Virus record (IMG/VR): IMGVR_UViG_3300031143_000770
Location: 1-51,290 of that record
Origin: a virus
Length of the DNA: 51,290 nucleotides
Strand: one strand, 5' to 3'
Of this stretch, positions 8,174 to 34,106 are shown piece after piece; position 1 is the first letter of the stretch; every line of letters begins with the position of its first letter. Under the pieces are notes generated by a model. It had not been told where the DNA came from. It made no database searches and worked only from the letters and a program-made list of their open reading frames with translations. The position numbers and the translations under genes were made by a program.

Positions 8174-9047
8174 ATACAGTGAAGCATTCTATTCGCTTCA
8201 AGGTGAAGGTAAATTTGTAGGTGTGCCTAGTGTATTCTTGCGTACTTTCGGTTGCAATTTTCGCTGCAAATCATTTTCAATGTCGAGTGAAGAACGTGAA
8301 TCTATCAAAGACGAACGATACAATCCAGAAGTAAAGAAATTGATTGATGATGGTGTACATATAAATGCTACGCTATTGGAAGACTTACCTATCATTCATA
8401 CAGGCTGTGATACATACGCGAGTATCTACCCAGAGTTCAAGCACTTGATGTTTGATCGTACTGTAGATGAAGTAGTTGATCACTTGTTATCGCTTACGCC
8501 AAACGGTAAGTGGATGATGGATAATGGTCAAGATATTCACTTAGTGATTACTGGTGGCGAACCTTTATTGGCATGGCAACGTATGTATGTGGATATATTT
8601 GAACATCCTCGTATGAGTGATTTAAGAAATGTTACATTTGAAACAAACACAACTCAGTCATTACATGACGAGTTATTTGAATATCTAGATAATAAAGATA
8701 CAATCACAGTAACGTGGAGTTGTTCACCTAAACTATTGGTTAGTGGCGAATCTCATGAAGATGCGATTAAGCCTGGTGTTGCTGTTCAGTATCGTCTAGT
8801 TACTGGTAATAATTTATATCTTAAATTTGTTGTATCTAATGCGGCAGATGTAGCAGAAGTAGATGAGGTAGTGACAGAGTATCGTAATTTTGGTATTGAA
8901 TGTCCTGTATATCTTATGCCAATAGGTGGTCGCTCAGAAGAGTACGATTTATCAGTAAGAGATATTGCACAGTTGGCATTAGAAAAAGGTTATAGATTTA
9001 GCCCAAGATTGCACATAGATTTATATGGTAATAATTGGGGTACATAA
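8163..9047 (+). CDS. queE: 7-carboxy-7-deazaguanine synthase, variant cluster motif
   Basis: Radical SAM enzyme converting carboxy-tetrahydropterin to 7-carboxy-7-deazaguanine in preQ0 synthesis. Diagnostic blocks are the N-terminal FYSLQGEGKFVGVPSVFLRTFG and the SAM-binding ITGGEP. The Fe-S motif is unusual: Cys31 and Cys35 fit CxxxCxxC, but the third position is Phe38. A cysteine further on (Cys82, in HTGCDTYAS) may supply the third ligand. At 294 residues it is longer than cellular QueE. The start is the ATG at 8163, inside the MazG-like gene; the TTG one codon earlier is not needed. Confidence 0.85.
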   Translation: MKLRYSEAFYSLQGEGKFVGVPSVFLRTFGCNFRCKSFSMSSEERESIKDERYNPEVKKLIDDGVHINATLLEDLPIIHTGCDTYASIYPEFKHLMFDRTVDEVVDHLLSLTPNGKWMMDNGQDIHLVITGGEPLLAWQRMYVDIFEHPRMSDLRNVTFETNTTQSLHDELFEYLDNKDTITVTWSCSPKLLVSGESHEDAIKPGVAVQYRLVTGNNLYLKFVVSNAADVAEVDEVVTEYRNFGIECPVYLMPIGGRSEEYDLSVRDIAQLALEKGYRFSPRLHIDLYGNNWGT

Positions 9048-9050
9048 ATA
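9043..9050 (+). promoter_or_regulatory. T4-like late promoter box (CATAAATA)
   Basis: CATAAATA 38 nt before the metK start, overlapping the end of queE. It resembles the T4 late -10 element TATAAATA. Confidence 0.5.
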
Positions 9051-9088
9051 GTACAAGCAATATAAAATGGAGATTTACAAAACAAATT

Positions 9089-10186
9089 ATGAATAATTAT
9101 ATTTTTACAAGTGAAAGTGTTAGCGAAGGACATCCCGACAAAGTAGCAGATCAAATATCTGATGCGCTTGTTGATGCAGGATTTAAAGTCGGCAATGAAA
9201 CCACACGTGTCGCAATTGAGACATTAGTTACTACCAATATGGTTACAGTTGCAGGAGAGGTTAAAAACTTCTTTGTAACAAATCAAGAAGTAGAGCAAAT
9301 AATTCGTGATACGGTTCGTAGAATTGGTTATGAACAAGATGGTTTTCATTGGGAAGTTATAGAGATACATAATGTTATACATACGCAAAGTGATGATATT
9401 GCATTAGGCACAGATGACTTTGGTGCAGGTGATCAGGGCATCATGTTTGGTTACGCATGCAATGACAATGATGCATATCTACCAGCACCAATTTACTACG
9501 CACATGAAGTTCTAAAAGCATTACAGAGAGTAAAATCATCAGAATCAATTGATCCCATATTGGGACCAGATGCAAAGTCGCAAGTATCAGTAGAATACAA
9601 AGATGGCAAAGTATCGCGTATTGACCAAGTAGTTATTTCAACACAGCATAAAGAAGGTCGTTACATAGAAGCATGCATTCTTGCTAGGAATGCAGCAGAA
9701 ATTGTATTGAAAGGTTTAATTGACAACGATACTGTGTGGCATATCAATCCTACGGGTAATTTTGTTATTGGAGGACCTGATGGCGATACTGGTGTTACTG
9801 GTCGTAAGATCATTGTAGATACATATGGTGGTTTTGCACCGCATGGTGGTGGTGCATTTAGTGGTAAAGATCCTACTAAGGTAGATCGTAGTGCAGCGTA
9901 TATGGCACGATGGTTGGCAAAGAATGTAGTAGCAAGTAAGATGGCTACATGGTGTCAGATTCAATTGAGTTATGCTATTGGTGTTAAAGAGCCTACTAGT
10001 ATCTACATTGATAGTGATGGTAGTAACAGTGAGATTGAGTCATTCATTCGTGATAATATTGATTTAACACCGAAGGCTATTATTGATAGGTTTGATTTAT
10101 TTAACTTTACTGACTATAGCACCAACTGCGTGTATGGTCATTTTGGAAACAAAGATGTTCCGTGGGAAAAGATTGGTTGGGAATAG
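9089..10186 (+). CDS. metK: S-adenosylmethionine synthetase
   Basis: Makes SAM from ATP and methionine. The full-length 365-residue protein has the N-terminal FTSESVSEGHPDKVADQISDA motif, the GAGDQGIMFGYA hexapeptide region, and the GPDGDTGVTGRK and GGGAFSGKDPTKVDRSAAY blocks, so it should be active. I start at the ATG at 9089, where family homology begins; the frame is open 54 nt further upstream. The window holds five radical SAM loci, a MTA/SAH nucleosidase and an IscA-type carrier, so a phage-owned SAM supply makes sense. Confidence 0.95.
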   Translation: MNNYIFTSESVSEGHPDKVADQISDALVDAGFKVGNETTRVAIETLVTTNMVTVAGEVKNFFVTNQEVEQIIRDTVRRIGYEQDGFHWEVIEIHNVIHTQSDDIALGTDDFGAGDQGIMFGYACNDNDAYLPAPIYYAHEVLKALQRVKSSESIDPILGPDAKSQVSVEYKDGKVSRIDQVVISTQHKEGRYIEACILARNAAEIVLKGLIDNDTVWHINPTGNFVIGGPDGDTGVTGRKIIVDTYGGFAPHGGGAFSGKDPTKVDRSAAYMARWLAKNVVASKMATWCQIQLSYAIGVKEPTSIYIDSDGSNSEIESFIRDNIDLTPKAIIDRFDLFNFTDYSTNCVYGHFGNKDVPWEKIGWE

Positions 10187-22026: not shown

Positions 22027-23460
22027 ATGACAGAAAAGAAATTACCATCAGATACGTTTTGTATTCTACCTTGGATACATTTGAGTACTCGCCCAGACGG
22101 CAGTATGAGAGTATGTTGTACAGCAAATGCAAGTAGTGTTGGTGCAACAAATGATAAAGTTCACGGTGGGCGAGTTGGCATTGTTAAGACAGATGATGGT
22201 AAGCCTGCAAACCTAAACAACAGTGACTTGTCTAGTGCATGGAACAATAGTTACATGCGTGGTGTACGTCAACAAATGCTTGCAGGAGAAAAGCCTGCTA
22301 GTTGTTTGAAATGTTACAAAGAAGAAGATGCAGGACATCGATCTAAGCGACAGTGGGAAACCCAGTACTGGATGCGTGATGGAATTGATGTTGATGAACT
22401 TGTTAAAGAAACATATGAAGACGGTTCAACTGATTCAAAACTACGATACATTGATATCCGTATGGGTACTAAATGCCAACTTGGTTGCGTTATGTGTAGT
22501 CCACACGATTCATCAGGATGGGTAAAAGATTGGAATAAGTTGTATCCACAGATTACCAATGAGTCACTAAAAGAAACAATGTCTTGGGATGATAAAGGCA
22601 AGCAGTTTGGTGCTAATTATAACTGGCATAAAAACAACCCACAGTTTTGGGAACAATTTTATGCTCAAATTCCATTCATGCGTCAACTATACTTTGCAGG
22701 CGGCGAATCGACGGTTATCGAAGAGCATTATGAAATCCTAGATAAAGTTATTGAAATGGGTTATGCATCTCAGATTGAGTTGCGTTACAACAGTAATGGC
22801 ATTGAATTGCCTGATCGTCTACTAGAGCAATGGAAGCATTTCCAAAAGGTACGTTTCCATTATAGTATTGACAGTATTGGTGAAATGAATGATTATATTC
22901 GTTACCCAAGTGAATGGTCACATCAACTTGCAATGTTTGAGCGTCTTGATACACAGACTTCTAACAACGTAGAGATTACAATCGCGTGTGCAGTTAACGC
23001 ACTAAACATTCACTACATTCCAGACTTCCTTAAATGGAAACTGCAATCAGACTTGAAGAAGACAAACATGTGGCCCTTTGGCGCTGGTGGTATTAACTAT
23101 CACTTTGTATACTGGCCAGGACATTTGAATGTCAAGGTATTGCCAGATGAGTTCTTAGACAAAACCGAAGCGAAGTATGAAGAGTTCATTGCATGGTGGA
23201 AAGAGAATTGGGAACTAGGTGTTCCAAGTTGGCACAAGGGTAAAGTAGATTATCAGACATGGGAAGATGCTGAATATGGCATCAAGCGTTTACGTGGTAT
23301 GATTAGTTTTGCTCGTAGTGAAGATTGGAGTCAGCGATTACCAGAGTTTAGAGAATACATTAACAAACTAGACGAGATGCGCGGCACCGATTTCAGAAAA
23401 ACATTTGCAGACATGGCTTACTTATTAGACGAGCCTACAGAGGACAATGATAGTGACTGA
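22027..23460 (+). CDS. Twitch-domain radical SAM enzyme (first of two)
   Basis: A 477-residue radical SAM protein. The radical cluster motif is Cys150-x3-Cys154-x2-Cys157 (KCQLGCVMC), and FAGGEST acts as the GGE SAM-binding motif. An N-terminal cysteine-bearing module (FCILPWIHLSTRPDGSMRVCC, later CLKC) resembles the SPASM/twitch auxiliary Fe-S domain, placed before the core rather than after it. Such enzymes modify peptides or sugars; the target is unknown. It overlaps the nucleosidase gene, which could remove its 5'-deoxyadenosine product. Confidence 0.82.
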   Translation: MTEKKLPSDTFCILPWIHLSTRPDGSMRVCCTANASSVGATNDKVHGGRVGIVKTDDGKPANLNNSDLSSAWNNSYMRGVRQQMLAGEKPASCLKCYKEEDAGHRSKRQWETQYWMRDGIDVDELVKETYEDGSTDSKLRYIDIRMGTKCQLGCVMCSPHDSSGWVKDWNKLYPQITNESLKETMSWDDKGKQFGANYNWHKNNPQFWEQFYAQIPFMRQLYFAGGESTVIEEHYEILDKVIEMGYASQIELRYNSNGIELPDRLLEQWKHFQKVRFHYSIDSIGEMNDYIRYPSEWSHQLAMFERLDTQTSNNVEITIACAVNALNIHYIPDFLKWKLQSDLKKTNMWPFGAGGINYHFVYWPGHLNVKVLPDEFLDKTEAKYEEFIAWWKENWELGVPSWHKGKVDYQTWEDAEYGIKRLRGMISFARSEDWSQRLPEFREYINKLDEMRGTDFRKTFADMAYLLDEPTEDNDSD

Positions 23461-24001
23461 TGTAATACCAGTATTAATTGCGTTAGAAGTGGAATTGCCC
23501 TATGAATTACCGACACCATATGTTAAAATAGTAACAGGTGTCGGTAAGATCAAAGCGACAATGGCAGCAATGGAAGCAGTATTTAAGTACAATCCTCATA
23601 CCATTATCAATATGGGTACTGCGGGCAGTTTAGATCCTGATTTAGCACTAGGTGTACATGAAGTTAGTACCGTAGGTCAACGAGATATGGATGCATCGCC
23701 TTTAGGTTGGAAAGTAGGACAGACTCCGTTCACTGGTGAATTATGGATAGATCTAAAACTTAGTGGTGTTTCATTGACTAGTGGTGATAACTTTGTCACA
23801 AGTCAGCCACCATTGAGTAGTACACTGGTTGATATGGAAGCATATGGTATTGCAATGGTATGCAAACAGTATAAAGTTATCTTTGATTGCTATAAGTACG
23901 TATCAGACTTTGCAGATGAAGATTCAACTACAGACTGGGAACAGAATTGCTCCGATGGTGCAAATGAATTCATGAAAATATTATCAAATCGTAGCGAGTA
24001 A
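23447..24001 (+). CDS. MTA/SAH nucleosidase-like phosphorylase-superfamily enzyme
   Basis: A 184-residue protein, somewhat short for MTA/SAH nucleosidase. The family motifs are present: TGVGKIKATMAA and INMGTAGSL (N-terminal), LVDMEAYGIAMVCKQ (ribose-binding Met-Glu) and YKYVSDFADE (purine-site Asp). It would split methylthioadenosine, SAH or 5'-deoxyadenosine. Its start lies inside the upstream radical SAM gene, suggesting a shared job of clearing inhibitory by-products. Confidence 0.8.
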   Translation: MIVTDVIPVLIALEVELPYELPTPYVKIVTGVGKIKATMAAMEAVFKYNPHTIINMGTAGSLDPDLALGVHEVSTVGQRDMDASPLGWKVGQTPFTGELWIDLKLSGVSLTSGDNFVTSQPPLSSTLVDMEAYGIAMVCKQYKVIFDCYKYVSDFADEDSTTDWEQNCSDGANEFMKILSNRSE

Positions 24002-24004
24002 ATA

Positions 24005-25570
24005 ATGTTAGATGTTGTCATGTTGGCGTATGGTGAACCAAACGCTGATCAAAATTTCAAAAGAATACAGAAATTAGCACCCAATGCGAAGAGGGTAGAT
24101 AATGTCGTCGGGATTTTAGAGGCACATCAAGCAGCAGCAAAATTGGCAACTACTGATAATTTTTATGTAGTAGATGCTGACGCGGTGTTATCTGAGCATT
24201 TTAATTTCTCATTCACACCTGATATCATTAAAGAATCGTATCCGGGTGTGAATGAATCAAGTTGTGTATTCGTATGGCAGAGTGTTAATGCAGTCAATGG
24301 ATTGATTTATGGTTATGGTGGAGTAAAGTTATTCCCTAGACATAAGTTATTGAATGCGAAATCATTTCAGATAGATATGACCACAACAATAGATGCACCA
24401 TTAGTAGTGAAGCAACAAATATCTAATATAACCGAATTCAATACAGATGAATTCAGTACATGGCGCAGTGCATTCCGTGAGTGTACAAAACTAGCATCTA
24501 ACCCCACTCCAGATATGGATGATCGATACAGATTAGATGTATGGTGTACTCGTGGAGATAGCAGTGCCCATGGAAAATATGCTATAATGGGTGCTAGACA
24601 AGGACGAGAGTTCGGTGCATTTTACAAAAATGATAAGAAAACTCTAGATAAAATAAACGATTTCACTTGGTTAACCACTACATTTGACAAGTCATCAGTG
24701 CATACAATAGATCAGCATCACCCAATTCATTTATCATGGTTTCATGGACTAGAAGAATATTTTACATTGTCATCCGTAGAATCATACTATGCAGTATTTA
24801 TTAAACTAAAGAATGCACTGGTATACGGTGATAACTGGGGCATTCGCGATCTTATTTTAGAAGAAGTAAATATAGGTAAGAATGAAGACACTGAACTTTA
24901 TGTTAATGTAATACTTCAATCATTATTAATAGATGATTATGTAATACCAGATCATCAAGTATTGGAATATATTAATCGCAATATTAATGATAATTTTATA
25001 TATGGATTGATGAAATTGTCTGACCCATCGCATGGTAATATTGATCTAGTAGATTTTATCACACGTGATTCGATGATAGGCAAGTCTTGGATGATTGAAG
25101 AATTAAGTAAGACAACGTTGGAACCATCTGATGTTGTAATATTGGGTGGTAACATATGCACCCATTCATCTATGTTAATTAATAATTATGAAACAATTGA
25201 ATCTATACTTAGTGTGGATATAGATCATAAGACAACAGAGTATGCTCGTTTGTTAAATCATATAGCAGAATCTGACGAATTATTCAGTGCACAAACCAAT
25301 GATGTATCTGATATAATATGGGATGAATCATCTCTGCCTGATTTATTGATAAACACTAGTTGCGCACATATGGATGATACATGGTTTGACAATATACCAG
25401 ATACTGATGATACTTTGATAGTAATACAGACAAATGATTTTTCAGATAATATGAACTGCGTTAAAGATCTGTCTACCGCCATGACTAAATACCAAATGAA
25501 AGAAGTATTATTTAGTGGTGAACAAAGCACACAGTTATATAATAGATTTATGATTATAGGAATCAAGTAA
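24005..25570 (+). CDS. Glycosyltransferase-like protein fused to a methyltransferase-like domain
   Basis: A 521-residue two-domain protein. The N-terminal part looks like a GT-A glycosyltransferase, with VDADAVL as the DxD motif near residue 58. The C-terminal 140 residues (DVVILGGNICTHSSM, then INTSCAHMD, then RFMIIGIK) look like a Rossmann methyltransferase-type domain. They match the C-terminus of the repeat protein at 46590-47840. It sits between two radical SAM genes and overlaps the second by one base (taATG). Substrates unknown. Confidence 0.6.
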   Translation: MLDVVMLAYGEPNADQNFKRIQKLAPNAKRVDNVVGILEAHQAAAKLATTDNFYVVDADAVLSEHFNFSFTPDIIKESYPGVNESSCVFVWQSVNAVNGLIYGYGGVKLFPRHKLLNAKSFQIDMTTTIDAPLVVKQQISNITEFNTDEFSTWRSAFRECTKLASNPTPDMDDRYRLDVWCTRGDSSAHGKYAIMGARQGREFGAFYKNDKKTLDKINDFTWLTTTFDKSSVHTIDQHHPIHLSWFHGLEEYFTLSSVESYYAVFIKLKNALVYGDNWGIRDLILEEVNIGKNEDTELYVNVILQSLLIDDYVIPDHQVLEYINRNINDNFIYGLMKLSDPSHGNIDLVDFITRDSMIGKSWMIEELSKTTLEPSDVVILGGNICTHSSMLINNYETIESILSVDIDHKTTEYARLLNHIAESDELFSAQTNDVSDIIWDESSLPDLLINTSCAHMDDTWFDNIPDTDDTLIVIQTNDFSDNMNCVKDLSTAMTKYQMKEVLFSGEQSTQLYNRFMIIGIK

Positions 25571-26883
25571 TGAACGATGACGATATAAAGAACAATGACA
25601 CAGATAATGGGTTTTGCGCACTGCCATTTGTACAATATAGTACATTCAATGGGGGTCGTTATCGATTATGTTGTATGGCAAAGGAACCTAGTGAACTTAT
25701 TAATCAAGAAGAACTAGGCATAGATGGAACATGGAATCATGATTACATTCGTAGTGTTCGTGAGCGTATGGCTACGGGCGAATGGCTACCAGAGTGTATA
25801 GAATGTAAAAGATTAGAACGTAACGATATTATAAGTTCTCGTCAATGGGAAAACTATTCATGGAAAGATCAGGTTCCAGATATTGTAGCATTAGCAAGTG
25901 CAAATGATTGGAATATAGAACAGCCTCTACAATTTGATTTTAGATTAGGTAATTTGTGTAATCTACAATGTCAGATGTGTAACAAAGAAGCATCGCATTT
26001 AGTAAGTGTTGAGCGTGCCAATATGATTGCAACAGATTTGGGTCCCAAATCTCCTAACTTAGATAGATATGATTGGGACAATAATATTGCTAATAAAAAG
26101 AAAGCGATAATTCAGCCTGGCATCGATTGGGATAGTTTTGATAAGATGCTGCCATATGCACAGACGATTAAAATGATTGGCGGCGAACCAACTGTTGTAT
26201 CTGATATGTTCAAGTTGCTAGACAGAGCAACTGAATCCGGATACGCAAAAAATATTACATTATCGTTCTACACGAACATCACCAATATGCAAGATAGATG
26301 GTTGAAGCAATTTAGTCAGTTTAAGCAAGTTGTTGTAAATTGCTCATTAGAGGGCATGGGTGATATGAATGATTATTTACGTCCGCCATCGCAGTGGGAT
26401 TCAGTATGGGAAAATTTTGATAAGTTAGTAAAGTATTCAAATACATCAGAAGGAAAGAACATTCGTGTACGTGTCACTACGGTGAATCAAGTAACAAACG
26501 CGTTGCATTTGGTTCCATTCTGGAGATTTATGCACGATTATCAACAGACTAATGACCGTACCATCGGCATGAGTACGAATCAATTGGTAGAACCTGAATA
26601 TTACTCAATGGCGCATAGTCCCCAATGGTTGCGTGATGAACAGAAATCACAGATACTAGAATTTTTAGAAGAGATAAAAGATAGTCCTCATTATGAAGAT
26701 TATTCACGTCCGTTAATGGAAGCATTGCATTTTGGCGAAGATCCAGAAACCAAGTATGATCGTGGATTTATGAGGGATTATGTTCAAGTAACAGAAAACT
26801 ATGATAAGCATCGCGGACATGATGTGATGTCAGTAGCACCTGAATTTAGCCGAATTAAATCAGATTTAGAACTTGACAAGTAA
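25570..26883 (+). CDS. Twitch-domain radical SAM enzyme (second of two)
   Basis: A 437-residue relative of the enzyme at 22027. The N-terminal cysteine module (GFCALPFVQYSTFNGGRYRLCC, CIECK) comes before the radical cluster Cys130-x3-Cys134-x2-Cys137 (LCNLQCQMC) and the IGGEPTV motif. The two enzymes probably act on related substrates. The gene starts at the preceding stop codon. Confidence 0.82.
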   Translation: MNDDDIKNNDTDNGFCALPFVQYSTFNGGRYRLCCMAKEPSELINQEELGIDGTWNHDYIRSVRERMATGEWLPECIECKRLERNDIISSRQWENYSWKDQVPDIVALASANDWNIEQPLQFDFRLGNLCNLQCQMCNKEASHLVSVERANMIATDLGPKSPNLDRYDWDNNIANKKKAIIQPGIDWDSFDKMLPYAQTIKMIGGEPTVVSDMFKLLDRATESGYAKNITLSFYTNITNMQDRWLKQFSQFKQVVVNCSLEGMGDMNDYLRPPSQWDSVWENFDKLVKYSNTSEGKNIRVRVTTVNQVTNALHLVPFWRFMHDYQQTNDRTIGMSTNQLVEPEYYSMAHSPQWLRDEQKSQILEFLEEIKDSPHYEDYSRPLMEALHFGEDPETKYDRGFMRDYVQVTENYDKHRGHDVMSVAPEFSRIKSDLELDK

Positions 26884-26891
26884 GGAAATAA

Positions 26892-27560
26892 ATGACATCA
26901 ACTAATATGGAATATTTAACTGAGATAGATTTTGCATTAACCACATATTGTCAAGCACGATGTAGAAGTTGTGCTAGAACGAATCAATATACTGGTGAAA
27001 AAGAAGATTGGTTAGAACTCAAGCATATGAATCTAGATGTGTTTAAACGAACTCTTGCAGCATCTACTAATATAAAGTATAATATAATTGAGTTTTGTGG
27101 CGAGTTGGGCGATCCCATGATGCATCCACAAGTTGACAAATTTATAGAAACTGCATTAGAATATGCACCATCAATATTAATATCAACAAATGGTGCGCTT
27201 AGAAATGCAAACTGGTATAAGACGATAGCAGAAAAATACACAGACGATGTCTTTATAAATTGGGCAATTGATGGAGCAACACATGACACCAATTGGAAGT
27301 ATAGAGAAGGTGTTGATTTTAATAAAGCTTTTGAAAATATGAAAACTCACACTCAATCAGGTGGGGATGGTGAATGGCGATATTTAATATTTGAGTGGAA
27401 TTGGCATGAAATACCGCTAGCACGTCAAATGGCAAAAGAGATTGGAATTAAAATTATTTTTTGCTTCAATAATAGAGATTTTGGATTAATAACACCAGAT
27501 TCTAGATTGGATGCAGAAAAATTATTAATAGGAGTGAGTCCAGATGACATCAAAGGGTAA
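26892..27560 (+). CDS. Radical SAM core protein (split from its SPASM partner)
   Basis: A 222-residue radical SAM domain with Cys20-x3-Cys24-x2-Cys27 (YCQARCRSC), FCGELGDPM in the SAM-binding position, and WAIDGATHD. It lacks the C-terminal auxiliary cysteines, which lie in the next frame (27544-27954). The single-chain homologue at 35289 carries both parts. The split may be a frameshift or a genuine two-subunit arrangement. Confidence 0.75.
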   Translation: MTSTNMEYLTEIDFALTTYCQARCRSCARTNQYTGEKEDWLELKHMNLDVFKRTLAASTNIKYNIIEFCGELGDPMMHPQVDKFIETALEYAPSILISTNGALRNANWYKTIAEKYTDDVFINWAIDGATHDTNWKYREGVDFNKAFENMKTHTQSGGDGEWRYLIFEWNWHEIPLARQMAKEIGIKIIFCFNNRDFGLITPDSRLDAEKLLIGVSPDDIKG

Positions 27561-27954
27561 ATATAATATTGAATGTCAATCATTCGAAGCTCTAAATGAA
27601 TTTACTAACCTCCCTGTAAGAAAATGGGAAGTAACACCAGAAGGAAGAGTGTGGCCATGTTGTTATTTTGCAAATGCATGGGATAGACGACATATGATGA
27701 GGGCAGATGAATTGGGTCCCGATGAAGATTCTAGTGAAGAAGATTTTCATAATGTAAATGGTGAATCAGCAGAATTATTGAATGATGCTAGAATGATGAC
27801 TATAATAAATGAAGATCCTGATTGGAATAGTTTAGAACATCACTCTATAGAAGAAATCATAGCGCACGAAGTATTCCACAGTTACATCTGGACTGAAGGA
27901 TGGAATAGCGATAATCCTGCGATATTGTGTGTTAATAATTGTAATAAGTGTTGA
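27544..27954 (+). CDS. SPASM-like auxiliary Fe-S domain protein
   Basis: A 136-residue protein carrying the auxiliary cysteines seen at the C-terminus of radical SAM/SPASM enzymes: EGRVWPCCYF near residue 38 and CVNNCNKC at the end. Its ATG overlaps the upstream core gene by 17 bp and has its own ribosome site (ggag at 27531-27534, 9 nt upstream). The frame is closed upstream by TGA at 27535. It is probably the second half of one enzyme. Confidence 0.68.
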   Translation: MTSKGKYNIECQSFEALNEFTNLPVRKWEVTPEGRVWPCCYFANAWDRRHMMRADELGPDEDSSEEDFHNVNGESAELLNDARMMTIINEDPDWNSLEHHSIEEIIAHEVFHSYIWTEGWNSDNPAILCVNNCNKC

Positions 27955-27979
27955 CAAGTAAGCCGTATTGTTGTATAAT
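27951..27979 (+). promoter_or_regulatory. Sigma70-type promoter
   Basis: TTGACA (27951-27956), 17-nt spacer, TATAAT (27974-27979), overlapping the end of the SPASM gene and driving two very small genes. Confidence 0.87.
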
Positions 27980-28008
27980 AGTTATATAAGTTAATAAAGC
28001 GCAAGGAA

Positions 28009-28155
28009 ATGAATATGTTAAATTTTTTAGAGACTACTGTTTTGCCAATGACACGTGTTATTGAAGCGAGCGGCTATTTTGAAATATTGTTATTATGTTT
28101 ATTGCCAATCATGCTGATTGGTAGTGCGGTATTATTTAAGAAAGGTGAATTATAA
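28009..28155 (+). CDS. Small single-pass membrane protein, 48 aa
   Basis: A 48-residue protein with one hydrophobic helix (about residues 25-43, EILLLCLLPIMLIGSAVLF) and a Lys-Lys C-terminal end. It has its own strong promoter and an aagga ribosome site, and overlaps the next ATG. Function unknown. Small phage membrane proteins of this kind can be host-takeover or lysis factors, but nothing here proves it. Confidence 0.62.
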   Translation: MNMLNFLETTVLPMTRVIEASGYFEILLLCLLPIMLIGSAVLFKKGEL

Positions 28156-28325
28156 TGGCTAGATTTAGTGAGTTTAAGCATTGGGTACAATCCATGTGGT
28201 ATGATCATAAGCGCGAAAAGATTGAGTGGGAAGGTAGTCCACCAGATTACGGTTTTCGTACGTGGGTTAACATGAACAAATGGTTCATCAAGCGTATGTG
28301 GAAAGCACGTAACGAAGAATCATAA
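28155..28325 (+). CDS. Small conserved phage protein, 56 aa
   Basis: A basic, Trp-rich 56-residue protein (MARFSEFKHWVQSMWYDHK, then WFIKRMWKAR). I recognise this pattern from T4-like marine phages, of unknown function. Its start overlaps the upstream stop codon (taATG). Confidence 0.66.
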   Translation: MARFSEFKHWVQSMWYDHKREKIEWEGSPPDYGFRTWVNMNKWFIKRMWKARNEES

Positions 28326-28367
28326 GTTTATATTAGACAGAACTGTAACGTATATCTGACCTTGTTC

Positions 28368-28514
28368 TAGACAAAAGGGTTTGGGTTGTAGCGCAGTCTG
28401 GGAGAAGCGTCTATCCTCGGTGATGTAGCATTAGATTAATTACCTAATACCCTGCATTACATAGATAGAAGGTCGTGGGTTCGAATCCCTCCAACTCCGT
28501 TAGAGTTTTGTCTA
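28368..28514 (+). ncRNA. Stem-closed region around the Pro-type tRNA
   Basis: tagacaaaa (28368-28376) pairs perfectly with ttttgtcta (28506-28514) and encloses the tRNA-Pro-like gene. A second copy of the left arm, atattagaca (28330-28339), can instead pair with tgtctaatat (28509-28518). Confidence 0.5.
28382..28499 (+). tRNA. tRNA-Pro(CGG)-like gene with a 41-nt anticodon-loop insertion
   Basis: D-arm, T-arm (loop TTCGAAT) and acceptor (six of seven pairs) match tRNA-Pro. The anticodon stem ctatc/gatag encloses 48 nt instead of 7. The loop reads C-T-CGG, then about 41 extra nt that fold on themselves (atgta/tacat, ttag/ctaa). No CCA is encoded. It could be an intron-like insertion or a decayed gene. 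Confidence 0.5.
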
Positions 28515-28515
28515 A

Positions 28516-28523
28516 TATAAATA
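28516..28523 (+). promoter_or_regulatory. T4-like late promoter box (TATAAATA)
   Basis: An exact TATAAATA 27 nt before the 28551 start. Confidence 0.55.
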
Positions 28524-28550
28524 TAGTTTAACTAAGCGTAGGGAAAAGTA

Positions 28551-28754
28551 ATGATTGTAGCACTAGCACTAATTGGGGCATTGTTCACAGTAGACAATGC
28601 AGAGTTTTTAAATCAGGTAGAGAAGAATAAAGCAGATGGTATGTCGTGGCATTACATTGGGTCAACTGCACCAAATGCAAATGATCCGTACATTGCTGCA
28701 ATTAACAAAGAAACGGGTGAAGAAACTGTTTACTTTAAGATGTTACAGGACTAA
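28551..28754 (+). CDS. Hypothetical protein with N-terminal hydrophobic segment, 67 aa
   Basis: The N-terminus MIVALALIGALFTVDNA could be a signal peptide or a short anchor. The remaining 50 residues are polar. I do not recognise it. A late-type box lies 27 nt upstream. Confidence 0.6.
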   Translation: MIVALALIGALFTVDNAEFLNQVEKNKADGMSWHYIGSTAPNANDPYIAAINKETGEETVYFKMLQD

Positions 28755-28785
28755 ATGTAACTAAGTATTTAATTGAAAATAAGTG

Positions 28786-28814
28786 TTGACAAGAACGAAA
28801 TAGTCTGTTACACT
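28786..28814 (+). promoter_or_regulatory. Sigma70-type promoter, first of a duplicated pair
   Basis: TTGACA (28786-28791), 17-nt spacer, TACACT (28809-28814). The 40 bp around it nearly match the promoter at 28900. Confidence 0.8.
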
Positions 28815-28899
28815 TATTACATAGGTTTGAGAAGCGTAACTAAGCATTTTGAACCGAAAAAGATAAATAGAATCATAAGAAATAAAGTTAAAATAAGTG

Positions 28900-28928
28900 T
28901 TGACAAGATAGAAATAGTCTGTTATACT
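28900..28928 (+). promoter_or_regulatory. Sigma70-type promoter, second of a duplicated pair
   Basis: TTGACA (28900-28905), 17-nt spacer, TATACT (28923-28928), upstream of a 37-codon ORF and the tRNA island. Confidence 0.86.
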
Positions 28929-28977
28929 TATAACATAAACAGTTAAAGATAACTGTAATAAACAAGAGAACGAAACG

Positions 28978-29091
28978 ATGTTAAACACATTCTGTAATTT
29001 ACATAGTAAACTAGATAGTCAACGCTGGTATCAGCCGGAGATTATGAATGTGCCCGCGAGTTTCTTAGACGAGGATGATGGATTATATTAA
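28978..29091 (+). CDS. Very small ORF, 37 aa
   Basis: A 37-residue protein (MLNTFCNLHSKLDSQRWYQP...) placed between a strong promoter and a rho-independent terminator, so it forms a stand-alone transcription unit. Ribosome site aacgaaacg is weak. Not recognised. Confidence 0.5.
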   Translation: MLNTFCNLHSKLDSQRWYQPEIMNVPASFLDEDDGLY

Positions 29092-29117
29092 GCCATTAAA
29101 TCCAATAAATTTCTAAG

Positions 29118-29151
29118 AAACCCGCCAAGCGAAAGCAAAGCGGGTTTTTTT
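29118..29151 (+). terminator. Rho-independent terminator
   Basis: Stem aaacccgc/gcgggttt around a 14-nt loop with an inner gc-gaaa-gc hairpin, followed by a T-run. Confidence 0.85.
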
Positions 29152-29156
29152 ATGAC

Positions 29157-29198
29157 AGTGTAAAAGTAGAAGCGGAACGAGGTCGCTGAGATTACACT
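29157..29198 (+). ncRNA. Two-tier stem-loop before the tRNA array
   Basis: agtgtaa/ttacact closes an inner agcg/cgct hairpin (42 nt in all). It is too short to be a tRNA. The stretch 29200-29316 beyond it holds only AT-rich hairpins (agtata/tatact at 29278-29293) and no gene. Confidence 0.4.
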
Positions 29199-29316
29199 TT
29201 AAATAATATCTCTAAAATGGCGTGTTGTAGGATTGAAAGTTCTAGTTAGAATGAGTAAAATTATGACAGTATATTTTTATACTAAAAAGCATTCATAGAG
29301 TGTTTTTCAGTATAAT

Positions 29317-29390
29317 GCTCGGTTAGCTCAAAGGTAGAGCCATCGCTCGATAAGCGATAGACGAAGGATCGTTACCTTCACTGAGTACCA
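29317..29390 (+). tRNA. tRNA-Ile(GAT), atypical loops
   Basis: Acceptor gctcggt/actgagt plus A-CCA, D-arm gctc/gagc, anticodon stem atcgc/gcgat. The anticodon loop TCGATAA has C33 instead of U33, and the T-loop is ATCGTTA instead of TTCRANN. Gene identity is likely; function is uncertain. Confidence 0.65.
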
Positions 29391-29437
29391 TTTTAAAATT
29401 GGAGATTCACTGCCATAAGTGTGAACTATAAAATTAC

Positions 29438-29523: not shown

Positions 29524-29599
29524 CAGGGTATAGCTGAGTTTGGTTTAGCACGGGCCTTGGATGCCTGAGACGAGGGTTCAAGTCCTTCTTCCCTGACCA
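29524..29599 (+). tRNA. tRNA-Pro(TGG)
   Basis: Acceptor cagggta/ttcccTg (one mismatch), anticodon stem cgggc/gcctg with loop CTTGGAT, T-loop TTCAAGT, encoded A-CCA. Confidence 0.85.
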
Positions 29600-29653
29600 T
29601 TAGAGATAGTGTATATCTCGTGTCTTTTATTAGATATAAAAATACAATTTAAT

Positions 29654-29726
29654 ACTCTTGCCAGTGGAACTGGCAGTTGGGTTTCGACCCCGACTTGCGA
29701 ATGTTCGATTCATTCCAGGAGTGCCA
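29654..29726 (+). tRNA. tRNA-Arg(TCG) with compact D-arm
   Basis: Acceptor actcttg/caggagt, G73-CCA, anticodon loop TTTCGAC, T-arm gaatg/cattc with loop TTCGATT. The D-arm is a tight hairpin gccag-tggaa-ctggc with no 8-9 linker, which is unusual. Confidence 0.72.
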
Positions 29727-29728
29727 AA

Positions 29729-29862
29729 TTTACTATGCTGGCTGCCGTCTACGTTTCCGGAAACTGACGTTAAATATTGAGGTTCAACTCCTCGGATACA
29801 TTAAGGAAGGCTTGGTGTATCGCGTTACAGGCAACGTAAGGGTTCGACTCCCAAATAGTAAA
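29729..29862 (+). tRNA. Composite tRNA-like element with two T-arms
   Basis: An 8-bp outer stem tttactat/atagtaaa encloses 118 nt holding two T-arm hairpins, tgagg-TTCAACT-cctcg (near 29778) and ggg-TTCGACT-ccc (near 29840), plus the palindrome gtttccggaaac. It is too long for one tRNA and looks like a fusion of two tRNA genes. Amino-acid identity not assignable. Confidence 0.35.
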
Positions 29863-29873
29863 CCGCTTTGATG

Positions 29874-29950
29874 GTGATCGTAGCATAACTGGCAAATGCC
29901 CAAGGTTGTGAACCTTGTAGATCCGGGATCATACCCCGGCGATCACACCA
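29874..29950 (+). tRNA. tRNA-His(GTG) with A73
   Basis: Acceptor gtgatcg/cgatcac, A73-CCA, anticodon stem caagg/ccttg with loop TTGTGAA. The T-loop is ATCATAC. Discriminator A73 is atypical for bacterial tRNA-His (normally C73 opposite G-1). Confidence 0.85.
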
Positions 29951-29960
29951 CTTATTTTAT

Positions 29961-30046
29961 GGAAGATGATCTAGTCTGGGACTAGGATGACTTGCTAAGT
30001 CAATCGGCTCGAAAGGGTTTGGGATCGTAACCTACTTCTTCCGCCA
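29961..30046 (+). tRNA. tRNA-Ser(GCT)
   Basis: Acceptor ggaagat/ttcttcc (six pairs), G73-CCA, anticodon loop TTGCTAA, long variable arm. T-loop ATCGTAA has A54. Confidence 0.78.
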
Positions 30047-30052
30047 CTTTTA

Positions 30053-30129
30053 GCGCGGTTGCCAGAGTAGCCAACGGAGCGGCTTGCAAACCCGTACAAC
30101 CATCGGTGCAAATCCGATACCGCGCTCCA
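30053..30129 (+). tRNA. tRNA-Cys(GCA)
   Basis: Perfect acceptor gcgcggt/accgcgc, U73-CCA as expected for Cys, anticodon loop TTGCAAA. T-loop TGCAAAT departs from TTC. Confidence 0.85.
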
Positions 30130-30136
30130 ATTTTAA

Positions 30137-30168
30137 GTTCCGTTCGTCTATCGGTTAGGACATACGGG
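30137..30168 (+). pseudogene. Orphan 5' half of a tRNA-Glu-like gene
   Basis: GTTCCGTTCGTCTATCGGTT and the following AGGACAT match the 5' half (acceptor strand and D-arm) of bacterial tRNA-Glu. No matching 3' half follows; a complete tRNA-Glu starts 10 nt later. Confidence 0.6.
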
Positions 30169-30177
30169 AAGAATTAC

Positions 30178-30254
30178 ATCCCCATAGATTACGTTGGTTA
30201 AATCACTAGACTTTCACTCTAGCGAACCGGGATCGTCGCCCGGTGGGGATACCA
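30178..30254 (+). tRNA. tRNA-Glu(TTC)
   Basis: Acceptor atcccca/tggggat with A-CCA, D-stem gatt/aatc, anticodon stem ctaga/tctag with loop CTTTCAC, T-stem ccggg/cccgg with loop ATCGTCG (A54). Confidence 0.82.
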
Positions 30255-30257
30255 TTT

Positions 30258-30358
30258 TTGTCTTATAGTTTAATATGGCATTTGGGTATGACGATACTCA
30301 AGAATAGAATCTTGCAATCAGCGAGAGATACAGGTATTGCATAATCCTGTTAAGACAA
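30258..30358 (+). tRNA. tRNA-like element, identity unclear
   Basis: Acceptor-like stem tgtctta/taagaca plus A. Internal hairpins ttgggtat/atactcaa and caaga/tcttg. T-arm-like acagg/cctgt with an 11-nt loop. About 100 nt, no CCA. Could be a class II tRNA with insertions or a decayed gene. Confidence 0.35.
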
Positions 30359-30370
30359 ATTATTTTTAAT

Positions 30371-30552: not shown

Positions 30553-30557
30553 CTTTT

Positions 30558-30656
30558 TATCTTGTTGCTTAATTAAAGCAGTGGAATCCCTCATACATCG
30601 TCAATGCTATGAGAATGATGTTTCCATGCATGTAGGTGCAAATCCTACCAAGATAA
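30558..30656 (+). tRNA. tRNA-Gly(CCC)-like gene with a ~28-nt anticodon-loop insertion
   Basis: Perfect 7-bp acceptor tatcttg/caagata with A73, D-stem gctt/aagc, anticodon stem gtgga/tccat, T-arm gtagg-TGCAAAT-cctac. The anticodon loop starts A-T-CCC and then holds about 28 extra nt with an inner stem ctcata/tatgag. No CCA encoded. Confidence 0.5.
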
Positions 30657-30667
30657 ATTATTTTTAA

Positions 30668-31386: not shown

Positions 31387-31431
31387 AGTAGAACAAGTTG
31401 AGAGATCAACACGCTCTTTAAAAATAGTTTG

Positions 31432-31527
31432 TTTTAATATGTATTATTGTTGATGAAAGTAGGGCTTGATGTTGGAAGTAGAACCATTAAGGTGTCTGAC
31501 GATAGTTAACAATAATATATTTTAAAA
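31432..31527 (+). ncRNA. Structured RNA element A
   Basis: A closing stem of about 20 bp, built around tattattgtt (31442-31451) and aacaataata (31508-31517), continues outward with one mismatch. It encloses about 50 nt. The tail acgatagttaa is shared with element C. No ORF. A promoter lies just upstream. Confidence 0.55.
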
Positions 31528-31543
31528 TGAATTAAAATAGTTA

Positions 31544-31583: not shown

Positions 31584-31737
31584 CTTTTGTATACACATTA
31601 GGTAGATACTGATTTTAGTAGGTATGGTGATTCGTGCTGAACGTTGAAGGGAATCGCTAAATGACAAGGGACTTGCTGTGTGGGATTAATCATCCCTGTC
31701 GTAGACAAGCGGTTGTTAAATAATGTGTATGCAAAAG
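31584..31737 (+). ncRNA. Structured RNA element B
   Basis: A 154-nt region closed by a 17-bp stem, cttttgtatacacatta (31584-31600) with taatgtgtatgcaaaag (31721-31737). A 35-nt core at 31633-31667 matches element C at 31 of 35 positions. An internal hairpin gggat-TAATC-atccc (31682-31696) has its counterpart in C. No ORF and no tRNA fold. Confidence 0.7.
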
Positions 31738-31740
31738 TGT

Positions 31741-31899
31741 ATTTTAATATATGCTATTGGGTAGAGCCAGATCGTAGTAAGCATAAGGGTGCGTGCTGAA
31801 ATTTGAAGGGAATCGCTGAACGACAATAGGTTTAATGTATACAGACTAATCCCTGTATATTGGAACCAACGATAGTTAAACGATAGTATATTTTAAAGT
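31741..31899 (+). ncRNA. Structured RNA element C (paralogue of B)
   Basis: A 159-nt region closed by a 19-position stem between 31741-31759 and 31881-31899 (one mismatch), of different sequence from B's stem. The shared core is at 31792-31826, exactly as far from the stem as in B. The internal hairpin tatacag/ctgtata (31838-31859) keeps TAATC in its loop although its stem sequence differs from B. Confidence 0.7.
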
Positions 31900-31920
31900 T
31901 TATTTTAAATAAAGTTTAAT

Positions 31921-32789: not shown

Positions 32790-32859
32790 ATCATCATTTG
32801 CCAATTGGTAAGGTTAGGCGAAGTAGTCGTTACTGGTTCGATTCCAGTTGGTGATACCA
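32790..32859 (+). tRNA. Shortened tRNA, anticodon not assignable
   Basis: Acceptor atcatca/tggtgat with A-CCA and a canonical T-arm actgg-TTCGATT-ccagt. The anticodon arm (ggcga/tcgtt, about 5-nt loop) and variable loop are too short. Probably a deleted tRNA gene. Confidence 0.5.
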
Positions 32860-33022: not shown

Positions 33023-33037
33023 CTATAATTTATTTTT

Positions 33038-33057
33038 GTATAAGATTTGTCTTATAC
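33038..33057 (+). other. AT-rich hairpin between RNA genes
   Basis: gtataag/cttatac around a 6-nt loop, directly upstream of RNA element F. Confidence 0.4.
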
Positions 33058-33069
33058 ATTTACAGAAAT

Positions 33070-33160
33070 CGCTTCTGTTATCGTGACATACAACGACAAC
33101 GATAGCGTTACACTCGTAACAAATACATGTTAATTATGCGAGTTGACGATAACAGAGGCG
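33070..33160 (+). ncRNA. Structured RNA element F
   Basis: 91 nt closed by a 15-bp stem (cgcttctgttatcgt, 33070-33084, with acgataacagaggcg, 33146-33160, one G-U). Inside, actcg (33112-33116) pairs with cgagt (33139-33143), competing with gttac/gtaac. No ORF, no tRNA fold. Confidence 0.55.
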
Positions 33161-33169
33161 GCGCTATTC

Positions 33170-33244
33170 GCGAGTATCGTATAATGGTTATTACGGGAGG
33201 TTTCCAACCTTTTGATGTCAGTTCGATTCTGACTACTCGCTCCA
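33170..33244 (+). tRNA. tRNA-Gly(TCC)
   Basis: Perfect acceptor gcgagta/tactcgc, U73-CCA, anticodon loop TTTCCAA, T-arm gtcag-TTCGATT-ctgac. Confidence 0.9.
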
Positions 33245-33374: not shown

Positions 33375-34106
33375 ATGAATAGTTTGTTTGAATACACAGA
33401 AGCAGTAGAAGAGTGCAAAGGTTCGTTAGAAGGTGATGGTGATAATAAGTTATTTACCGAAGCAGAGCGTGTTCTATCTACTGAAATAAACAACGAAGAA
33501 AAGATATTAAAGCATCCGATATTACATGAAGCGTTTGATCGCATCGTAGAGCAACATGTACCAAATCAATCAACTGCATTTTTATCATTATGCACTGCTA
33601 CTCGTCCTTATAACAAGAGCAAGAAGTGGAAAGGATTCATCAACAAGTTTGGTGGTAAGGTAGATATGATAGTTGTATCTAATGGTGGTATGATGCCACA
33701 ACAGTTTTGGAAAAGTTGGCCCTATTTGAATTACGATGGGGGTGATCATTATGATGTTAAAATGTATCAAGATATTATGCATGAACGATTATTGAAGTTT
33801 TTTAGGAAGCACAATTACAGTAATGTTATTGCAAACTTTAGACCTAATTTAATCAATCATCAACCAGCACATGATGCGCTTTCTATTCTGAAAGAAGAAG
33901 GTAGCATTGGTGATTATATTGTAATGCCTAATCAGGAGTTGTATGATAAGGCACAGTCATTAGGTTGGCGACCACCACAAGGTCAAGGTGATATGTTCCC
34001 TGATTTAACCAATACGATACTGAGTGCATTAACTGCTCAAGTGGAAGAATTCGGGTATGATGAAGATTTATTTACTGTTCATGAAAAATTAAAGTACAAT
34101 AAGTAG
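33375..34106 (+). CDS. ArcS/DUF5591-like protein
   Basis: A 243-residue protein. LCTATRPYNKSKKW (residues 72-85) closely follows the archaeosine-synthase signature PCx3KPYx2Sx2H, with Arg77 in place of Lys and Trp85 in place of His. Further on, VDMIVVSNGGMMPQQF and YLNYDGGDHYDV fit the same domain. ArcS acts on the nitrile of preQ0 in archaeal tRNA. With FolE, QueE and a DpdA-like enzyme nearby, this protein may take part in 7-deazaguanine DNA modification. The Lys-to-Arg change makes catalysis uncertain. Confidence 0.5.
   Translation: MNSLFEYTEAVEECKGSLEGDGDNKLFTEAERVLSTEINNEEKILKHPILHEAFDRIVEQHVPNQSTAFLSLCTATRPYNKSKKWKGFINKFGGKVDMIVVSNGGMMPQQFWKSWPYLNYDGGDHYDVKMYQDIMHERLLKFFRKHNYSNVIANFRPNLINHQPAHDALSILKEEGSIGDYIVMPNQELYDKAQSLGWRPPQGQGDMFPDLTNTILSALTAQVEEFGYDEDLFTVHEKLKYNK

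Follow-up and report, generated by a model that had tools for sequence, protein, structure and literature searches.

The window analysed here, a 51,290-nt stretch of viral DNA (IMG/VR record IMGVR_UViG_3300031143_000770), contains at positions 28382-28499 of the plus strand a cloverleaf derived from a tRNA-Pro(CGG) gene, with 41 extra nucleotides lying directly 3' of the anticodon. Judged from its sequence, the element is tentatively read, with a likelihood a little short of even, as a retained, unspliced tRNA-like RNA or tRNA mimic. Decay of the tRNA gene is a close rival, because every copy found is near-identical and no diverged homologue is at hand.

The identity of the element is supported by two methods, which agree with the original prediction of a tRNA-Pro-like gene with a 41-nt insertion after the anticodon. 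An alignment to the Rfam tRNA model RF00005 runs end to end over 28382-28499, at a cmscan score of 24.7 bits that falls short of the gathering cut-off of 29 bits. ARAGORN calls no gene at 28382-28499 in normal mode, and in intron mode, proposed as a check alongside the prediction, it calls a tRNA-Pro(CGG) with a 41-nt intron. A chance cloverleaf is ruled out, as none of 3000 dinucleotide-shuffled versions of the region is called in intron mode. The four arms occur in cloverleaf order and the D- and T-loop consensus is satisfied. The acceptor 5' strand UGGGUUG (28382-28388) is followed by a Pro-like D arm, GCGCAGUCUGGGAGAAGCGU (28391-28410), and by an anticodon stem in which CUAUC (28411-28415) pairs perfectly with GAUAG (28464-28468). 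The anticodon loop reads CTCGG, then the 41 nucleotides, then two loop nucleotides, which places the Pro anticodon CGG of the ARAGORN call at 28418-28420 if U33 is 28417, and the insert at 28421-28461; the junction may equally fall after position 36, 37 or 38, a shift of up to 2 nucleotides. The T arm, GUGGGUUCGAAUCCCUC, occupies 28475-28491, and the acceptor 3' strand CAACUCC with a discriminator G occupies 28492-28499. Excision of the 41 nucleotides would leave a cloverleaf of 77 nt whose anticodon stem is perfect.

The expectation that the insert has a stem of its own is likewise borne out, with the qualification that the predicted 9 + 5 bp hairpin prolongs the anticodon arm. In the predicted fold the cloverleaf is retained and the arm becomes a single long hairpin, which runs from the 5-bp stem through a 4x3 internal loop, a 9-bp helix, a 1x3 internal loop and a further 5 bp to a 9-nt loop. 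Taken alone, the 118-nt RNA is no stabler than its shuffles (z 0.16). The tRNA-like gene is surrounded by a 24-nt inverted repeat, absent from the original prediction, whose 5' arm (28327-28350) is 92% complementary to a 3' arm (28498-28521) that begins at the acceptor end; folded with these flanks (28322-28524), the element reaches a z of -4.98. The sequence TAGACAAAA at 28368-28376 may pair instead with TTTTGTCTA at 28506-28514, creating an alternative closing helix.

The claim that all arms are present holds for their number and order, and less well for their condition. Only six of seven acceptor pairs form, with U1 opposite C72; the T stem contains one U.U mismatch; nucleotide 26 is missing; the variable region has 6 nucleotides; and no CCA is encoded at the 3' end (28499), whereas all 18 ARAGORN-called tRNAs of the window's array encode one. 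Bacterial prolyl-tRNA synthetase uses C1-G72 and A73 as identity elements, and neither is present in the element. Position 37 is also not G, which carries little weight since the phage's own tRNA-Pro(UGG), at 29524, has A37. With U1 opposite C72, no CCA, a mismatched T stem and nucleotide 26 missing, the element is not a normal decoder. The codon CCG is rare in this phage, accounting for 38 of 348 Pro codons across the ORFs included in the count.

The element lies between an ORF of 56 aa (28155-28325) and one of 67 aa (28551-28754), and a sigma-70-type promoter, TTGACA-17-TATAAT, is found upstream on the same strand (27951-27979); this promoter, a 12/12 match to consensus and a consensus match only, could drive a small operon containing the element. 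The element is identical in four further contigs: 3300031140_000597, 3300031688_001404, 3300031647_000750, a near-identical relative of 192 kb, and 3300027771_000105 (L004/L008). The last of these is 98.5% identical to the window overall from 25570 to 29395, with no changes between 27900 and 28518 and dense changes from 28519; as the upstream DNA from 27900 is equally unchanged, it is uninformative on selection at the element. Sharp borders between identical and diverged sequence occur at 28519 and 29395; beyond the latter, most of L008's tRNA array has been replaced, a pattern that suggests recombination. The samples that contain these phages are marine. At the orthologous spot of L009, both neighbouring ORFs are kept with an unrelated ORF and no tRNA between them. 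Searches for more distant relatives returned little: blastn found no named phage relatives of the locus, the 67-aa neighbour led only to the same near-identical set, ARAGORN found no tRNA in loci with ~70% identical radical-SAM proteins (L011-L033), and no version of the gene lacking the insert was found. Since all known copies are near-identical, covariation is not available for the element. The same contig also carries a phage methionine adenosyltransferase-like gene (9035-10186), a run of genes (22027-27954) of which two have radical-SAM or SPASM matches, and a gene for a DUF5591 protein (33375-34106).

Other unusual tRNA-like or folded stretches occur in the window. At 30553-30664 lies a tRNA-like gene whose acceptor, D and T arms are intact and whose anticodon arm is ~28 nt longer (z -3.6). 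The array has further irregular tRNA-like pieces, at 29650-30260, 30264-30360 and 32790-32856: Arg(TCG)-, Ser(GCT)- and Cys(GCA)-like genes that ARAGORN does not call, the 5' half of a tRNA-Glu (30139) ahead of a complete Glu gene, a degenerate cloverleaf (30264) and a very short tRNA (32790). Strongly folded non-coding stretches with long AT-rich closing helices occur at 31428-31530 (z -5.3), 31587-31738 (z -3.5) and 31738-31902 (z -3.0); the latter two are paralogues, 76% identical over 71 nt, and none of the three has an Rfam match. A further non-coding stretch, 33036-33172 (z -4.7), is closed by a 15-bp helix, CGCTTCTGTTATCGT/ACGATAACAGAGGCG.

Pro-tRNA patterns allowing 20-50 extra nucleotides identified one similar architecture in viral contigs, L036, and a second pattern identified another, L047; beyond known loci, a very loose Pro pattern returned mostly random matches in these contigs, and no relatives of the L036 locus were found. 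Both are tRNA-Pro(UGG) genes with a 28-nt hairpin exactly between G36 and G37, and the body of L036 is intact (57 bits). Read by eye, both allow G35 and G36 to pair with a CC that ends the insert, and the two hairpins share the tip CUUC-NNNN-GAGG above a lower stem that differs in sequence and still pairs. The element and these loci have in common the isoacceptor family, the insertion point after the anticodon and the extended anticodon arm, and differ in insert length, in the shared tip and in the G35G36 pairing with the terminal CC. In addition, the L047 contig, linear and 26 kb long, encodes a TROVE (Ro60) protein at its opposite end, whereas TROVE was not detected in the 192-kb relative of the element's phage.

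A broader pattern, covering class I tRNAs with 18-48 extra nucleotides, matched at least 120 viral contigs; among the matches listed, many are tandem tRNA pieces. One family emerges, comprising at least 28 distinct sequences with an insert of about 37-50 nt in which a 7-bp hairpin is followed by the motif C[AT]GCAA (L060, L071, L077, L080, L084, L089, L092, L095, L101, L105, L109, L117, L122, L124, L131, L138, L150, L158, L159, L164, L166 and others). Across 23 aligned sequences, two-sided changes occur in all seven hairpin pairs and in the split anticodon stem, 95.8% of cells are paired as against 62% after shuffling, and the covariation score is 0.871 as against 0.183. In 13 loci a canonical anticodon arm is regained once the insert is excised, compared with a mean of 0.02-0.09 in shuffles, for which reason introns were suspected at first. 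However, 16 of 33 such loci have a DUF2828 gene in the DNA fetched, mostly 100-800 nt away, as against three of 53 others. In whole records, PF11443 matches were obtained for 14 of the 17 family contigs examined, with one weak match among them, and for neither T4 nor the relatives of the window. The DUF2828 profile also detects the L047 TROVE protein (E 1e-6), which supports kinship between DUF2828 and Ro60.

The cultured Enterococcus phages EA1 (L196) and vB_OCPT_Ben (L197), reached via L131, have tRNA-like RNAs in permuted YrlA order beside a DUF2828/DUF7788 gene, unannotated in their records. Those of EA1, at 232-332, 1339-1432 and 1511-1632 of L196, score 47.8, 35.8 and 28.4 bits against the YrlA model RF02553, all below its cut-off of 69. 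Owing to the permuted order and open anticodon stem, such an RNA cannot be an intron-bearing tRNA. Together with the DUF2828 neighbours, these RNAs make a Y-RNA reading of the C[AT]GCAA family, by analogy, more likely than an intron reading, and the extra stem looks like a candidate protein-binding module rather than an intron. At L141, L156, L113, L130, L137 and L167 the anticodon arm carries CTCATGGTGAAGGRCCAAAWCGCYGGRGG, which marks a second family of inserts; the L156 contig encodes TROVE and the L141 contig DUF2828. Published work on jumbo phages has noted Ro60/TROVE proteins partnered by a tRNA-like RNA (PMC7824862).

Like members of the C[AT]GCAA family, such as L060, L105, L131 and L159, the element combines an otherwise complete tRNA body with an anticodon-arm hairpin in the size range of about 38-50 nt. 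It is rejected as a member, as its insert lies in the loop after position 36 and not in the anticodon stem after 28/29, the conserved motif does not align, and a DUF2828 gene, often 100-800 nt away in the family, was not found in the 192-kb relative. The score of 37.5 bits against the family's covariance model, which also matches ordinary tRNAs, is alone no proof of membership. In the case of the bacterial Y RNA YrlA, the partner of Ro60 (TROVE), the likeness is a tRNA-like module that bears, where the anticodon would be, a stem foreign to tRNA; the Rfam family is circularly permuted (T arm, acceptor, D arm) and the element is not, and its match to RF02553 is partial (28469-28529) at 15.9 bits against the cut-off of 69. 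Neither TROVE (PF05731) nor DUF2828 (PF11443, or a home-made DUF2828 HMM) was found in the 192-kb relative. As motif, insertion point and partner gene are not shared, the element is not filed as a Y RNA. It is doubtful that the element is one of a widespread and mostly unannotated group of Y-RNA-like phage tRNA mimics without permutation, whose anticodon-arm hairpin would bind a Ro60-like protein (TROVE, DUF2828 or another). T4 species 1 RNA (rnaC), a stable RNA of a phage tRNA cluster with unknown function, offers a looser parallel in its stability, its cluster and its tRNA-like 3' part, T arm included (PMC3014915, PMC9697503); its 5' domain is different, and it has no tRNA match at the Rfam tRNA cut-off.

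The original prediction offered an intron, a mimic or decay, and is supported in part: the intron loses ground, the mimic gains and decay remains. Group I and group II introns, whose cores are ~200 nt or more, are rejected for a 41-nt insert in a region (28200-28700) with no match to an Rfam intron model even at E 10. The accompanying statement that phage tRNA introns are normally large group I elements was incomplete, as tRNA introns termed 'enigmatic' were reported for Lak megaphages (Devoto et al. 2019, PMC6784885). These too interrupt phage tRNA genes with inserts nearly identical between related phages; unlike the element, with its defective body, most of their bodies are callable, and the insert is present in some of those phages and lacking in others (PMC6784885). 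This precedent favours a functional tRNA-Pro(CGG) that loses the 41 nucleotides through a protein endonuclease and ligase, encoded by host or phage, or through a ribozyme of unknown kind. So does the position of the insert, which adjoins the anticodon as in a protein-spliced intron and whose removal restores the arm, and so does L036, in which removal of 28 nt between 36 and 37 restores the loop TTTGGGA in an undamaged body. Against it, tRNA splicing endonuclease (PF01974), RtcB (PF01139) and T4-type RNA ligase 1 (PF09511, for which the T4 positive control matched) were not found in the 192-kb relative, a contig that may be incomplete, and the predicted fold has no bulge-helix-bulge at the insert junctions. 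Moreover, a scan of 84,980 prokaryote genomes for Pro tRNAs with 20-50 extra nucleotides gave four matches and no introns; all four are T-arm duplicates beside normal tRNAs or a tRNA-Pro that is called intron-free, and a bacterial tRNA of the same kind is thus rejected, with no such substrate class in hosts. Given also the acceptor defects, the missing CCA and the association of the most similar large viral family with Ro60-like rather than splicing genes, a spliced intron is unlikely.

Decay, in which a small palindromic insertion broke the tRNA-Pro(CGG) gene and the acceptor end is being lost, has a sizeable chance of being correct while falling clearly short of even. It would explain the several independent defects in the body, and loss would be tolerated, as the phage retains tRNA-Pro(UGG); the rarity of CCG, the unrelated ORF at the orthologous spot of L009 and the other fragments of the array (the Glu 5' half and the degenerate cloverleaf), in a setting where tandem or broken tRNA pieces are frequent, point the same way. 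Harder to reconcile with decay are the anticodon stem, still perfect and running on into a long folded insert, the inverted repeat that surrounds the unit (z -5), and the second gene of the array, 30553-30664, with its intact body and extended anticodon arm. A cis-acting mRNA element, in which fold and repeat would regulate or process the transcript from the 56-aa to the 67-aa ORF with no RNA set free, is consistent with the tight operon downstream of a consensus promoter and with the alternative pairings of the 3' arm (28368-28376 as against 28327-28345). It is highly improbable, considering that L009 keeps both ORFs with another ORF, and no such structure, between them. The tRNA mimic is favoured by the cloverleaf beyond chance, a body unlike that of an ordinary decoder, the lack of detectable splicing apparatus in the 192-kb relative and the folding of the flanked unit; by analogy it gains from the similar architecture of L036 and L047 and of the covarying C[AT]GCAA family near DUF2828, from TROVE on the L047 contig, and from the YrlA-like RNAs beside DUF2828 in EA1. 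It is weakened by an insert that lacks C[AT]GCAA, by the failure to find TROVE or DUF2828 in the 192-kb relative, by the RNA without flanks being no stabler than shuffles, and by near-identical copies that give no covariation.

The sequence itself displays a cloverleaf with a damaged acceptor end and no CCA, an anticodon arm that the 41-nt hairpin lengthens, and the 24-nt inverted repeat that closes the entire unit within a small-ORF operon. If the tRNA mimic is the correct reading, the element, which arose from a tRNA-Pro(CGG) gene, would be co-transcribed with this operon and freed by RNase III-type cleavage of the long helix, followed by tRNA trimming. The freed RNA would act as a tRNA mimic and not as a decoder, its body resembling a tRNA to some tRNA-binding protein and its extra stem serving as a putative binding site, an architecture that the Y-RNA-like tRNA mimics in other phages also seem to have.

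Annotation usually skips enlarged phage tRNA genes or labels them introns. The comparison made here suggests that many of them are tRNA-shaped RNAs with a putative protein-binding stem, encoded beside Ro60-like genes; if a Y-RNA-like set of this kind exists, at least some reported phage tRNA 'introns' would be protein-binding modules. Should the element belong among such RNAs without an obvious partner, it would hint at a further class.
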